Assembly: GCA_023269915.1 (NCBI GenBank)
Contig: JAGDWZ010000048.1
Coordinates: 1-37,318, forward strand
Origin: Hydrogenobaculum sp.
Lineage (GTDB): Bacteria; Aquificota; Aquificia; Aquificales; Aquificaceae
Direction of reading: 5' to 3'
Length of the DNA: 37,318 nucleotides
Positions 17,991 through 36,050 of this stretch are shown here, one piece after another. Every line of letters starts with the position of its first letter. Position 1 is the first letter of the stretch. The position numbers were made by a program, and so were the translations under genes. The notes under the pieces were generated by a model. The model was not told the origin of the DNA and searched no databases. It saw only the letters and a program-made list of their open reading frames with translations.

Positions 17991-19385
17991 TTAATCGTTG
18001 TTTTTATACTTTAGCACTTCTTCTTTGTCGCTAAAATGGTATTTTACTCCCTTTATCTCTTGGTAATCCTCATGACCTTTTCCTGCTATTACTATTACAT
18101 CGCCTTCTTTTGCAATATCAATGGCCAACGCTATGGCTTTTCTTCTATCTTCTTCTACCATAGGAGATTTTGTTTTATCTATGCCCTCTAGTATATCTTT
18201 TATTATATCGATAGGTTCTTCAAAACGTGGATTGTCAGAAGTGATTATCACAATATCAGAGAGTTCCGATGCTATCTTACCCATCTTTGGTCTTTTGGTT
18301 TTGTCCCTGTTGCCCCCTGCTCCAAAAACACATATAAGACGGTTTTTAGCAATATCTCGTGCCGCTTTTAAAAGCTTTTCTAAAGCATCTGGTGTATGGG
18401 CATAATCTATTATTACCTTAACGCCCTTTAACTCTATTGTTTCAAACCTTCCCGGTATTGAGCTTAAAGATAAAAGTCCTTTCTGGATATTTTCTTCGTC
18501 AAAACCCATATAAAAAGCAAGCAGTATAGAAGCCCCCATGTTGTACCCTTGAAAACTTCCCATGAGATTCGTTTTTAACTGATAGCGTTTATTTTTATAG
18601 TAAAAGCTTAAAACTTTGTTCTCTTGGTCAAAATGCTCAAGCTTTAGATGAGCATCGCTTGAGTATCCGTAAGTTATAGCTTTATCTTTAAACTCTTCGT
18701 ATAAGCGTTTGCCGTAGTCATCATCTATATTTATAACACATACTTCGTATTTGTAATCTTTGAAAAGTCTTCTTTTGGCATTGAAGTAGTTTTCCATAGT
18801 CTTGTGATAATCAAGATGGTCCTGGGTTAGATTTGTAAAAACAGTGGCAAAAAAAGTTGTCGGATATACTCTTAGCTGGTCTAAGGCGTGAGAAGATACC
18901 TCCGCCGATACAAAATCTAAGCCTTTTTCACGGGCTTTTGACAAAAGACTAAACCACGTCTTAACACCAGGGGTAGTGTTTGGAGCTTCTAAAAGTTCAT
19001 CTCCAAGCTTATAATACATAGTCCCTAAAATACCGCCTTTGTACTTTTGGGATAAAATAGCGTGTATTATGTGTGTTGTGCTTGTTTTGCCGTTGGTACC
19101 GGTAACTCCTATAACCTTTAGAGCTTCATCTGGCTTGTCAAAGTGCTCTTTTGCGCATTCGCCAAAGGCTTTTTTAGAATCTTCTACAAGTATTATGTTT
19201 TTATAGTCTTTGTAAGGTTTTTCTGCCACTACATAAGGAGCGCCTTTTTGAACGGCCTCTTCTATAAAGTCGTGTCCGTCTTTTGAAACGCCTTTTATGG
19301 CAAAAAAGATAGTATTTTCATCAACTTCCTTGGAGTTGTCCGTAATGTTATACTTCTTGCAATCTAAATCCATTGTAAACATCAA
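17991..19385 (-). CDS. murE: UDP-N-acetylmuramoyl-L-alanyl-D-glutamate--2,6-diaminopimelate ligase; start possibly 19373
   Basis: GVTGTNGKTSTTHII, TTPGVKTW, DNPRFEEP (DAP-type), IAGKGHEDYQ. Confidence 0.95.
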   Translation of the reverse strand: MMFTMDLDCKKYNITDNSKEVDENTIFFAIKGVSKDGHDFIEEAVQKGAPYVVAEKPYKDYKNIILVEDSKKAFGECAKEHFDKPDEALKVIGVTGTNGKTSTTHIIHAILSQKYKGGILGTMYYKLGDELLEAPNTTPGVKTWFSLLSKAREKGLDFVSAEVSSHALDQLRVYPTTFFATVFTNLTQDHLDYHKTMENYFNAKRRLFKDYKYEVCVINIDDDYGKRLYEEFKDKAITYGYSSDAHLKLEHFDQENKVLSFYYKNKRYQLKTNLMGSFQGYNMGASILLAFYMGFDEENIQKGLLSLSSIPGRFETIELKGVKVIIDYAHTPDALEKLLKAARDIAKNRLICVFGAGGNRDKTKRPKMGKIASELSDIVIITSDNPRFEEPIDIIKDILEGIDKTKSPMVEEDRRKAIALAIDIAKEGDVIVIAGKGHEDYQEIKGVKYHFSDKEEVLKYKNND

Positions 19386-19860
19386 ACTCTTTTGATATAT
19401 GTTTTTGAGGGATTTGGTAATCCACTTTCACAAAGTAAAGACAGTTTGTGGTGCATTTGGTAACGCAAGATGGCAAAAGCCCCTCTTCTAATCTATTTAT
19501 ACAAAAATCGCATTTTACTACTTTTTCAGTTTCTGGGTTGAAGCTTATTGCCCCGTAAGGACAAGCCACTATGCAAGCCTTACAACCTATACAAAGGTTA
19601 TCCCTTACATAAACAAGCCCATCTTCTCTTTTTGTCATAGCGGAGGTAGGACAAGCGTAAACGCAAGGGGCGACATCACAGTGAAAGCAGTTCATAGGCA
19701 TAAAATACGAGATAGCATCATCTTCGTAGTGTTCAAAACGAAGCACCTTCATGGGCCTTGGTCCTTCTTGAAATAGCCCTTTTTCTTGCTTGCAAGCCAC
19801 CTCACAGGACATACAGCCAATGCATCTGTCTATATCCATAAGCATTATATACTTTTCCAT
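19348..19860 (-). CDS. Four-cluster 4Fe-4S ferredoxin-type electron-transfer subunit (DmsB/HycB-like)
   Basis: 170 aa; CIGCMSCEVAC, CFHCDVAPCVYAC, CIGCKACIVAC, CDFCINRLEEGLLPSCVTKC. Confidence 0.92.
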   Translation of the reverse strand: MEKYIMLMDIDRCIGCMSCEVACKQEKGLFQEGPRPMKVLRFEHYEDDAISYFMPMNCFHCDVAPCVYACPTSAMTKREDGLVYVRDNLCIGCKACIVACPYGAISFNPETEKVVKCDFCINRLEEGLLPSCVTKCTTNCLYFVKVDYQIPQKHISKEFDVYNGFRLQEV

Positions 19861-31376: not shown

Positions 31377-32159
31377 ATGATATTAAAAGGTAAAAAAGCT
31401 CTTATAATGGGTTTAGCAAACGACAAAAGCATAGCTTACGGTATTGCCAAAAGCTTTAAACGAGAAGGAGCCGAAATAGCCATAAGCTACGCCGGTGAAT
31501 CTGTGAAAAAAAGGGTTATGCCTATAGCAGAGGAGCTTGGTACAGAGCTTGTTTTTGAGTGCGATGTATCAAAAGACCAAGACATAGAAAACCTAGCCAA
31601 CAACATAAAAGAAGTCTGGAACAATATAGATATAGTAGTACACTCTATAGCCTACGCCCCAAAAGATGAGTTTAAAAACGGGGTTATAGATACCACGAGA
31701 GCTGGTTTTGGTATAGCAATGGATATATCAGTTTATTCTTTTATAGCTGTTGTAAGGGCTTTTTCAAGCATAATGAACGAAGAAGGAGCTTTCTTGACGC
31801 TTTCTTACTACGGGGCTCAAAAGGTAGTACCTCACTACAACGTCATGGGTATAGCAAAAGCAGCCTTAGAAAGTGCTACAAGGTATCTGGCTTTTGACAT
31901 AGCAAAGAAAAATCAAAGAGCAAACTGCATATCCGCAGGTCCTATTAAAACTTTATCCGCTTACAGCATCACCGGATTTCACCTTCTAATGGAACACACG
32001 GTAAGGGTAAGTCCTTTAGGAAGGCATGTAACCATAGAAGAGGTGGGAGATACGGCAGCGTTTTTGTGTAGCGAGTGGGCAAGAGGCATCACAGGTCAAA
32101 CCATATACGTAGATAGCGGTTACAGTATAATGGGTGTCTCTGACAAAGAAGAAGAGTAA
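31377..32159 (+). CDS. fabI: Enoyl-[acyl-carrier-protein] reductase (NADH) FabI
   Basis: ALIMGLANDKSIAYGIAK, SIAYAPKDEF, YYGAQKVVPHYNVMGIAKAALE, AGPIKTLSA. Confidence 0.97.
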   Translation: MILKGKKALIMGLANDKSIAYGIAKSFKREGAEIAISYAGESVKKRVMPIAEELGTELVFECDVSKDQDIENLANNIKEVWNNIDIVVHSIAYAPKDEFKNGVIDTTRAGFGIAMDISVYSFIAVVRAFSSIMNEEGAFLTLSYYGAQKVVPHYNVMGIAKAALESATRYLAFDIAKKNQRANCISAGPIKTLSAYSITGFHLLMEHTVRVSPLGRHVTIEEVGDTAAFLCSEWARGITGQTIYVDSGYSIMGVSDKEEE

Positions 32160-32170
32160 GAGGTTATATC

Positions 32171-33616
32171 TTGCTGGAGTCTTTAAGCTCAAAAGAATTT
32201 GATAAAGAACTAATAGGTTATTGCATAGGTTGTAATTGTGGGTGTAAGTTTATAGCTTATATAAAAGATAACAAAATAGTGGATGTCACAGGGCATCCTT
32301 CCGATAGGCTTGGGATGGGTAGTTTTTGCACGAAAGGTATAGCCCTCGTCCAAGAGCTTCCTTTTTCGGAGCTTAGGTTAAAAGAATCAGATAAACCCAG
32401 TATAGATTTAAGCAACGACATAGGGATATATGTAGATAGATTTTGTACCGACGAAGAGCTTCAAAGGGCTTTTTCTTTTACAGAAAACGTATACTCAAAT
32501 ATGCTTTACGTTGAAAAGCCTAAAACTATAGAAATAGAAAATATACCCGATAAAAAGGTAATCCTAAACATATCAGAACCCTCTTACTACGATGTAATGC
32601 TATCAAGGTGGATTATAGATGCAAAACAAAAAGGAGCAAAGCTTTTCAGCGCTGGTGCGATGTTTACAAACATAATGTTTAAATCACACTATAAAAAGTT
32701 GATAGAGCCATATCAGTTTTTAAGCTTTTTAGAAAACATAAAAAACGCCTTTGATATAGGACATAGCGAAGATGAGTTTATAAACAAATTTGCCACATTT
32801 TCTACAAAATTAAGTAGCGCTCTTATAATAATAGAAGATAGTTATATTAAGATAGATAGAGATTTCGTTTTAGGATTTTTAAAACATATGAAAGAAAAAT
32901 ACAACATAGATTACATCATCACCGGCAACATAACCCATTGGCCTGTCAAGAATATAAAAGAACATTTAAAAGACATAGAAAATCACAACGTTATCATAAA
33001 CGTAGGGGACATGTTTAGACATATACCAGATAACAAGCTAGAAAGCTTTTCTAAAAAAGATATACTGAGCCTTTCTCATATGGCAAACATGAGCGTCAAC
33101 CTATCCAAATATTATCTTCCAAGAAAGTTTTTTATAGAGATGGATTTTACTAAGAAAACGGCGTTTTTAGATGTAAGTGCCAAAAAACTCTTTGAAAATG
33201 AAAACTCTTATACGCTTCTTGATATAATACCGGATGTTAAAAATATTTCTCATATTAAAAGCCCAAAATACGAGCCTACAAATCTAAACGGTTATGCACT
33301 TTTTGTGGGCAACAGCGTAGTAGACGATATGGGACATTACTCAAGGTGGCTTCACGAAATAGAGTCAAACCAATACGTATATATAAACAAAACGCTGGGA
33401 GATAGCATAAGTATAGCCGACGGAGAGCTTTTAGAAATCACTACCGAATACGGAAAAGCCATCTTCAAAGTAAAAATTTCTGCAAATATACCAAACAACA
33501 CATTTTTTATATCCAACGGCTTTGATGAATATCAGCCCTTTTACGAAGGAGTAAGACCAGGGGTTTTAACTATTGACAAAAGTTTTATACCGGTGGTAAG
33601 ATATAGAAAGGTATAA
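32171..33616 (+). CDS. Molybdopterin-oxidoreductase-fold protein with N-terminal 4Fe-4S motif, short/possibly cofactor-degenerate (TTG start)
   Basis: CIGCNCGC-x27-CTKG (C-x2-C-x3-C-x27-C-xKG); WIIDAKQKGAKLF; C-terminal HYSRWLHEIESNQYVYINKTLGDSISIADGELLEITTEYGKAIFKVKIS dinucleotide-binding-like domain. Confidence 0.8.
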   Translation: MLESLSSKEFDKELIGYCIGCNCGCKFIAYIKDNKIVDVTGHPSDRLGMGSFCTKGIALVQELPFSELRLKESDKPSIDLSNDIGIYVDRFCTDEELQRAFSFTENVYSNMLYVEKPKTIEIENIPDKKVILNISEPSYYDVMLSRWIIDAKQKGAKLFSAGAMFTNIMFKSHYKKLIEPYQFLSFLENIKNAFDIGHSEDEFINKFATFSTKLSSALIIIEDSYIKIDRDFVLGFLKHMKEKYNIDYIITGNITHWPVKNIKEHLKDIENHNVIINVGDMFRHIPDNKLESFSKKDILSLSHMANMSVNLSKYYLPRKFFIEMDFTKKTAFLDVSAKKLFENENSYTLLDIIPDVKNISHIKSPKYEPTNLNGYALFVGNSVVDDMGHYSRWLHEIESNQYVYINKTLGDSISIADGELLEITTEYGKAIFKVKISANIPNNTFFISNGFDEYQPFYEGVRPGVLTIDKSFIPVVRYRKV

Positions 33617-33632: not shown

Positions 33633-36050
33633 ATGAATAAAAGTTTAGAAGGTAAACTAGTAGTTTTCCTAGACGAAGTTGGTATCGACGACATACCTTA
33701 CGTTGGTGGGAAAAACGCATCTTTGGGGGAGATGATAAGACATTTAAAACCAAAAGGAGTAAATGTACCTTATGGTTTTGTGGTAACCGCCGAAGCTTAC
33801 AGATACTTCATAAAGCACAACAACCTTGAAGAGAAGATAAAAGATGCCCTAAAAGATTTAGACCCTTCAAACTTAGAACAGCTTGCCAAGAAAGGCCATG
33901 CCGTAAGAGAAATGATAAGAGCTGGTGATTTTCCGCAAGACTTAGAAGACGAGATAACAAAAGCTTACGAAAAACTATCCCAAATGTATAACACCCATGC
34001 AGTAGATGTGGCGGTTAGATCTTCTGCCACAGCGGAGGATTTACCTGATGCTTCTTTTGCAGGTCAGCAAGAAACCTATCTAAACGTAGTAGGGGCTCAA
34101 AATGTACTTGTAGCCGTCAAAAATGGTTTTGCATCGCTTTTCACAGACAGAGCCATATCCTATAGACATTCTCACAACTTTGACCACTTTAAGATAGCCA
34201 TATCTATGGGTGTCCAAAAGATGGTACGCTCAGATTTAGGTGCCTCTGGGGTTATGTTTACCATAGATACAGAAAGCGGCTTTAAAGATGTGGTGGTTAT
34301 AAACGCCATATACGGTCTTGGAGAGATGATAGTCCAAGGTATGGTAACTCCAGATGAGTACATGGTCTTCAAGCCTACTCTCAAAAAAGGCTTTTCTGCC
34401 ATCATAGAGAAGAAACTTGGCAAAAAAGATAGGAAAATGATATACGGGGTGGGGTCTGATAGGGTGAAGATAATAAACGTGCCTCAAAATGAGCAAAAGC
34501 TTTACGCTTTAAATGATGATGAGATACTTACCTTGGCAAAATGGGGCATAGAAATAGAAGAGCACTACAAAAAACCTATGGATATAGAATGGGCAAAAGA
34601 CGGCAACGATGGTCAGCTTTATATAGTCCAAGCAAGACCAGAAACAGTCCAATCAAGACGCCAACAAAATAAGCTCATAGTATACGAAATAAAAGACCCT
34701 CTTGAAGAAAGGATAAATCACAGGATATTAAGCGGCATAGCCGTAGGTGATAAAATAGCCGTAGGCACAGTAAAAGTGATACACAGCATCAAAGAAGCTT
34801 CAGATTTTAAAGAAGGAGATATACTGGTTACAGATATCACAGACCCAGACTGGGAACCTATAATGAAAAAAGCCGCTGGCATCATTACCAACAGAGGCGG
34901 TAGAACCGCACATGCAGCTATAGTGGCAAGAGAATTTGGTGTCCCAGCTGCCGTAGGTACCCAGAAGGCAACAGAAGTGTTAAAAACTGGTATGAGAGTG
35001 ACACTTTCTTGCGCTGAAGGAGAAACTGCATACGTATACGATAAAGAGTTGGAATTTGATGCAAAAGAAATAGATTTATCAAACATCAAAAAGCCAAAAA
35101 CCAAAATAATGATAAACGTAGCAGACCCAAGCTCGGTGTTTAGATACGCCGCCATTCCAAACGATGGGGTAGGTCTTGCCAGAGAAGAGTTTATCATAGC
35201 AAACTATATAAAAATACATCCTTTAGCCCTTATAAACCTAAATTATGTAAAAGAAAAAGACCCGGAGCTTTACAAAGAGATAGAGAATATAACCTTTGGC
35301 TACGACAACAAAGAAGAGTATTACGTAAAGAAGCTTTCTTACGGGATAGCAAAGATTGCGGCGGCTTTTTATCCAAACCCTGTAATAGTGAGGTTTTCTG
35401 ATTTTAAAAGCAACGAATACGCAGGACTTTTAGGCGGTAAATATTTTGAGCCAAAAGAAGAAAACCCAATGATAGGCTGGAGAGGTGCTTCTAGGTATTA
35501 TTCAGATAAGTTTAAAGTAGCCTTTGGGCTTGAGTGTAAAGCAATACTAAGGGTTAGAAATAAAATGGGTCTTGACAACGTAAAGGTGATGGTGCCATTC
35601 TGTAGGACGCCTCAAGAAGGCGCAAAAGTGCTAGAAACCATGAAAGAGTTTGGGCTTGTAAGAGGAGAAAATGGCCTTGAAGTTTATGTAATGGCAGAAA
35701 TACCAAGCAACATAATATTAGCAGACCAATACGCCGAGATATTTGATGGATTTTCCATAGGTAGCAACGACCTAACCCAGCTAACCCTTGGTATAGATAG
35801 AGACTCTGATTTGGTAGCTCATCTATACGATGAAAGAAACGAAGCAGTCAAAATCATGGTGGCAAACCTCATAGACGTAGCCAAAAAAACCAACAGAAAA
35901 GTAGGTATATGTGGCCAAGCCCCAAGCGACTTCCCAGATTTTGCTCAGTTCTTAGTAGAAAAAGGTATAGACAGCATATCCCTAAATCCAGACTCAGTTT
36001 TTAAAACTATGCTTGCTGTCGTAGAAATGGAGGAAAAATTGCATAAATAA
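33633..36050 (+). CDS. ppsA: Phosphoenolpyruvate synthase
   Basis: VGGKNASLGEMI, VRSSATAEDLPDASFAGQQETYLN, ITNRGGRTAHAAIVARE, SIGSNDLTQLTLGIDRDS, GICGQAPSD. Confidence 0.97.
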   Translation: MNKSLEGKLVVFLDEVGIDDIPYVGGKNASLGEMIRHLKPKGVNVPYGFVVTAEAYRYFIKHNNLEEKIKDALKDLDPSNLEQLAKKGHAVREMIRAGDFPQDLEDEITKAYEKLSQMYNTHAVDVAVRSSATAEDLPDASFAGQQETYLNVVGAQNVLVAVKNGFASLFTDRAISYRHSHNFDHFKIAISMGVQKMVRSDLGASGVMFTIDTESGFKDVVVINAIYGLGEMIVQGMVTPDEYMVFKPTLKKGFSAIIEKKLGKKDRKMIYGVGSDRVKIINVPQNEQKLYALNDDEILTLAKWGIEIEEHYKKPMDIEWAKDGNDGQLYIVQARPETVQSRRQQNKLIVYEIKDPLEERINHRILSGIAVGDKIAVGTVKVIHSIKEASDFKEGDILVTDITDPDWEPIMKKAAGIITNRGGRTAHAAIVAREFGVPAAVGTQKATEVLKTGMRVTLSCAEGETAYVYDKELEFDAKEIDLSNIKKPKTKIMINVADPSSVFRYAAIPNDGVGLAREEFIIANYIKIHPLALINLNYVKEKDPELYKEIENITFGYDNKEEYYVKKLSYGIAKIAAAFYPNPVIVRFSDFKSNEYAGLLGGKYFEPKEENPMIGWRGASRYYSDKFKVAFGLECKAILRVRNKMGLDNVKVMVPFCRTPQEGAKVLETMKEFGLVRGENGLEVYVMAEIPSNIILADQYAEIFDGFSIGSNDLTQLTLGIDRDSDLVAHLYDERNEAVKIMVANLIDVAKKTNRKVGICGQAPSDFPDFAQFLVEKGIDSISLNPDSVFKTMLAVVEMEEKLHK

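Follow-up and report, generated by a model that had tools for sequence, protein, structure and literature searches.

To date, few MopB lineages without a Mo/W cofactor have been recorded, namely NuoG/Nqo3, FhcB, and ActB (PMC10100899). Among them, FhcB is a cofactor-less MopB scaffold, and ActB is a MopB-like subunit that lacks the cofactor (PMC10100899). Arsenite oxidase AioA, in which no amino acid serves as metal ligand, is nevertheless active (PMC10100899). The window examined here (the whole stretch of DNA analyzed, 37,318 nucleotides) comes from Hydrogenobaculum sp., a hot-spring bacterium, and carries a gene for a 481-aa MopB-like Fe–S protein (positions 32,171–33,616, + strand), delineated with the ORF list, Pfam, and orthologues and proposed to be cofactor-less. 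A description of its family was not found in the literature. We consider it probable, though far from certain, that the protein represents an independent, Aquificaceae-specific lineage of cofactor-less MopB proteins, serving as a one-cluster electron relay or scaffold.

The gene is present in a single copy in the host genome. Its TTG start, already read by the earlier note, is shared by the orthologues of all five Hydrogenobaculum-level genomes, and GAGG at 32,160–32,163 (+ strand) is, judging from the sequence, the likely ribosome-binding site. Members of the family are approximately 475–535 aa long, and no signal sequence was seen by eye in the window's protein. The Fe4S4 site (residues 18–53; 32,222–32,329, + strand), located by Pfam and an alignment of 51 members, contains exactly the signature described before, C18-x2-C21-x3-C25-x27-C53-T-K-G with an extra Cys at position 23, and Pfam Molybdop_Fe4S4 matches residues 18–61 with 27.9 bits (cut-off 22.7). 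The C-terminal dinucleotide-binding-like domain (residues 392–472; 33,344–33,586, + strand), which had likewise been proposed, is confirmed by the alignment and by a Pfam Molydop_binding match over the same residues (30.7 bits; cut-off 26.8); the middle of the window's member has no Pfam match. C18, C21, C25, and C53 are invariant in all 51 members, as are G56 and R69. Position 23 is Cys in 46 of the 51, and C-x-K-G is kept in 50, K55 being replaced by Arg in the remaining one. Pfam matches were obtained in 50 members for Fe4S4, in 23 for Molydop_binding, and in 10 for Molybdopterin (PF00384), and the C-terminal domain shows the family motifs W-x-H-x2-E and E-x-Q-P. This conservation suggests that the protein binds one [4Fe-4S] cluster near its N-terminus. 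An AlphaFold2 model built from only two sequences (those of the window and of locus L031) had a pLDDT of 32 and was unusable.

By fold, as judged from Pfam and from a full-length HHalign alignment to 25 members, the protein belongs to the MopB (DMSO reductase) superfamily. With HHalign E-values taken as single comparisons, the family profile aligned with 25 Mo/W-type enzymes of the same bacterial family over 501 of 525 columns (E = 8.9e-27), and with the MopB half of NuoG from the same bacteria over 260 columns (E = 3.5e-5). The best-matching solved structures are the F420-dependent formate dehydrogenase (E = 2.3e-15) and the W-dependent formate dehydrogenase (E = 6.6e-14), and NuoG/Nqo3 structures match weakly (E = 1.6e-4). 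The strong alignment with Mo/W enzymes and the weak one with NuoG indicate a whole, shortened MopB subunit that is closer to the catalytic enzymes. NCBIfam yielded only fragments of models for formate dehydrogenase and related proteins, far under their cut-offs; for formate dehydrogenase alpha (TIGR01591), the score was 31.5 bits against a cut-off of 666. The protein resembles cytoplasmic and W-dependent formate dehydrogenase alpha subunits and NasA-type nitrate reductases in its full-length domain order, its Fe4S4 site with C-x-K-G, and its C-terminal dinucleotide-binding-like domain, whereas these enzymes comprise 650–1010 aa and have the Mo/W ligand and pterin motifs that are missing or eroded here.

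Comparison with related MopB lineages reveals both likenesses and differences. As proposed for the present protein, the C-terminal half of NuoG/Nqo3 has a MopB fold without the Mo/W cofactor and a single cluster site at its N-terminal end. However, the N-terminal [2Fe-2S]/[4Fe-4S] half of NuoG has no counterpart here, the protein starting only 17 residues ahead of the cluster. The possibility that it supplies the missing half of a split NuoG was ruled out, as the 622-aa NuoG of the same genome has its own MopB half. The suggestion of a FwdB-sized enzyme was not supported. No match to the FwdB/FhcB model one_C_dehyd_B (TIGR03129) was listed at E values up to 10, and FwdB chains matched the family profile at only E = 0.025–0.06. 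FhcB is similar in size, but FwdB lacks the C-terminal dinucleotide-binding-like domain, and no Fhc/Fwd genes lie near the gene. ActB and QrcB are also MopB-like subunits; unlike them, the protein is small, stands alone, and lacks, by eye, a signal sequence. No match to the QrcB model NF041783 was listed at E values up to 10, and no alternative-complex-III genes were recognized by eye among the neighbors.

The protein also differs from the catalytic enzymes at the metal site. In place of the Mo/W-ligand loop, profile alignments and the 51-member alignment show a shorter segment (residues 108–136; 32,492–32,578, + strand). The very short metal-ligand segment noticed earlier is thus real; it precedes an 'EP' motif and is a family-wide trait, reading roughly Y-x-D-x3-L-P-F-x-P-S-T-L-x-P-x2-W. 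It contains no conserved Cys or Sec, and from C53 to M143 the 51 members share no conserved Cys in any alignment column. Position 119, which is Thr/Ser in 49 of them and Glu in two, is not aligned with the Mo/W ligand, and no equivalent of the Cys/Sec/Ser/Asp metal ligand of Mo/W-bisPGD enzymes was found in the protein. In reference enzymes from the same genomes, the ligand Cys or Sec is located 36–37 residues before GxN, with 'HAPTVASLAPRFGRGAM' or a similar stretch in between, and when the protein is aligned with the F420-dependent formate dehydrogenase, the selenocysteine of that enzyme sits, together with the surrounding loop, in an insertion that is missing here. The pterin-dinucleotide motifs, whose persistence the earlier note had raised, have not persisted: in the HHalign alignment, GsN, DP, and PGTD correspond to E-x-EP, SSR, and P-x-x-x. 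Because AioA has no ligand, a missing ligand alone is no proof of a missing cofactor; the joint loss of the ligand loop and the pterin motifs is a stronger argument for cofactor loss than that of the ligand alone. Together with the intact Fe4S4 site, the missing segment supports the NuoG-like loss of the cofactor site that had been suspected, and we infer from the sequences that the cofactor is absent.

Other features of the family would be expected of a functional site. GH[YW], a motif presumably also found in formate dehydrogenase H, is kept at residues 388–390, directly upstream of the C-terminal domain, and the polar residues K8, D38, R146, D150, K171, Y248, E323, E453, and Q455 are invariant or nearly so, although the overall identity across members is only 25–35%. 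Such a pattern resembles that of a ligand-binding or active site and would count against cofactor loss. A catalytic protein with a remodeled active site that still binds a pterin cofactor (a single dinucleotide, perhaps, or Mo/W without a protein ligand, as in AioA) would fit the retention of C-x-K-G and GH[YW], the invariance of polar residues in both the middle and the C-terminal domains, and the presence of Moco biosynthesis genes. We regard it as unlikely, since the ligand loop, GxN, DP, and PGTD are all lost and the substitution rate is far above that of the catalytic Mo subunit in the same genomes. The near-invariant polar residues nevertheless leave room for a ligand site, and the 'undescribed biochemistry' envisaged for this gene is possible. 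In its explicit form, the rebuilt MopB site of an Aquificaceae-specific enzyme or active electron-transfer subunit would support novel chemistry, and K8, R146, D150, K171, Y248, E323, E453, and Q455 would line a pocket for another ligand beside the cluster; we find this quite unlikely.

Rates of evolution point in the direction of a scaffold. Between four genera, the protein shows 40–53% identity, and the cofactor-free MopB half of NuoG, also fast-evolving in the same genomes, shows 48–50%. The corresponding values are 74–85% for the Fe–S half of NuoG and 82–91% for a 947-aa catalytic Mo subunit. The protein therefore evolves at about the rate of the NuoG MopB half, unlike the catalytic Mo subunit, which is scaffold-like behavior. 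Yet the gene is maintained under purifying selection, as its dN/dS is approximately 0.14 in a Hydrogenobaculum-level comparison (against genome G030); the pN/pS constraint on it is 4–5 times weaker than that on the nearby FBA, fabI, and ppsA genes.

The gene had been called an orphan; instead, it belongs to a near-universal Aquificaceae family. When 136 genomes from the phylum were searched at the protein level, and again with the 51-sequence profile, it was found whole or as large fragments in 61 of 64 Aquificaceae genomes, a count that leaves out two genomes in which the match was merely to the Fe4S4 domain in a different Mo enzyme. The three family genomes that lack it (G022, G041, and G047) are 65–90% complete. 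It was found in none of the remaining 72 genomes of the phylum, where the best match covered the Fe4S4 segment plus little more (E = 4.7e-10). The nearest named relative, from a Hydrogenobaculum MAG, is 86% identical, and the family is taken to be Aquificaceae on the strength of that record; a search of genome contigs gave L031 as the sole match, and no relatives were found on plasmids or viral contigs. This range and the dN/dS value together indicate, at the level of sequence, a functional gene.

Cofactor supply exists in the family, as moaA was above cut-off in 56 of the 64 genomes and moeA was present in 54. As a test of whether the MopB-like protein needs the cofactor, these genes are confounded, since another Mo enzyme is nearly always present. 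One genome (G042) has neither moeA nor any PF00384 match, possibly owing to an assembly gap. The corresponding Mo enzyme of Hydrogenobaculum, read in the window's genome (L079:3079–5892; G000, contig C17), is PhsA-like, 937 aa long, and Tat-like at its N-terminus. Three genes, for proteins of 223, 305, and 320 aa, come after it, and the 223-aa product is a ferredoxin-like beta subunit; the PhsA-like enzyme would explain the Moco genes of that genome. Most other genera have the 947-aa subunit, which is PhsA/SoeA-like (L082, L094, L095, and L096) and often encoded less than 10 kb from moeA. About 20 family genomes (loci L107–L111 among others) carry a formate dehydrogenase alpha subunit of approximately 1,010 aa whose ligand codon is a single in-frame TGA, in the context [RT]-[IV]-U-H-A-P as in selenocysteine enzymes; it was not seen in the window's genome. 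Two proteins of approximately 950 aa (L072 in G029 and L073 in G028), with an end-to-end match to the NuoG model and a strong PF00384 match, are possibly NAD-linked formate dehydrogenases.

The neighborhood of the gene gives little indication of a redox partner. It lies 11 bases from the upstream fabI (31,377–32,159, + strand; ORF list and Pfam) and 16 bases from a downstream ppsA-like gene (33,633–36,050, + strand). The order fabI–ppsA around the gene, as previously described, is correct here, but it is confined to Hydrogenobaculum: ppsA is adjacent only in that genus, while fabI adjoins the gene also in genera g3, g10, and g11. In 21 loci and the window, the commonest arrangements are fabI followed by the gene and then hpf-, secF-, and pilD-like genes, and the gene followed by pncC/cinA, lpxA, and, in some cases, glmU; the names hpf, secF, pilD, lpxA, glmU, and ppsA were read from sequence, and PncC was assigned by profile. 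These neighbors appear to be housekeeping genes, and the statement that no redox partner adjoins the gene is true of every locus read. In five genera, the gene overlaps the PncC/CinA-domain gene, by 4 bases in nine of ten genomes read. The PncC/CinA protein at L038–L046 and L050 has an extra N-terminal portion of approximately 70 aa, and an lpxA-like gene comes next. This overlap and the lack of a conserved redox neighbor are what might be expected of a chaperone or cofactor-handling protein whose MopB fold holds an assembly intermediate of another enzyme. However, the invariant Fe–S site would have no evident role in such a protein, and the PncC coupling is missing in other genera, whose genomes have the PncC gene elsewhere; this explanation is very improbable.

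If the MopB-like protein is an electron relay or scaffold, its partner would be encoded elsewhere. A candidate, and a candidate only, is an orphan four-cluster ferredoxin resembling DmsB/HydN-like beta subunits (19,348–19,860, − strand), identified by profile match and a survey of its range. Its clade occurs in 55 of the 64 genomes of the family but is missing from the other 72, with at least 214 bits within the family against a best of 126 bits elsewhere, and orthologues outside the genus show 61–68% identity. In several genera, the ferredoxin gene directly follows the ribosomal-protein/rpoA cluster. In the window, the listed TTG start of a Mur ligase gene (17,991–19,385, − strand) overlaps it by 38 bases (19,348–19,385); translation of the ligase probably begins a few codons further downstream. 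In a more specific form of the preferred explanation, the MopB-like protein would be an alpha-like subunit paired with this ferredoxin in a small soluble electron-transfer complex, similar to FdhA/FdhB or DmsA/DmsB without the Mo site. Besides the DmsB/TtrB/HydN type of the ferredoxin, the ranges agree (both genes in 54 family genomes, the MopB-like gene only in seven, the ferredoxin only in one, and neither in two), and in G049, the only genome with the two near each other, they are 1.7 kb apart. Even there, however, two genes lie between them, one on the opposite strand, and the common range may reflect a single co-gain on the stem of the family. Moreover, three genomes of one genus (G054–G056), one of them 97% complete, have the MopB-like gene without the ferredoxin, and the distance correlation between the two proteins ceased to be significant when the NuoG MopB half was applied as the stricter control (partial r = 0.19, p = 0.09). 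Thus, of the link proposed earlier, the shared family-only range stands, but co-evolution and the ferredoxin-less genomes lend no support to a strict pair; the pairing is rather unlikely and is a lead, not a result.

Under the preferred reading of a cofactor-less relay or scaffold, the ancestor of the lineage would have been a catalytic subunit resembling formate dehydrogenase or nitrate reductase, and the Mo/W-bis-pyranopterin cofactor would have been lost, while the protein would still fold as the usual MopB domains around the cluster. It would reside in the cytoplasm, where it would relay electrons and serve as a scaffold subunit, a role comparable to that of the C-terminal NuoG half in complex I. 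It would then be a further example of the known evolutionary repurposing of a molybdoenzyme into a scaffold or relay, and would offer a compact test of that change. For the thermophilic Aquificaceae, the gene would be a conserved unknown, near-universal in the family and found in none of the other genomes sampled from the phylum, kept by purifying selection at a partnerless locus.
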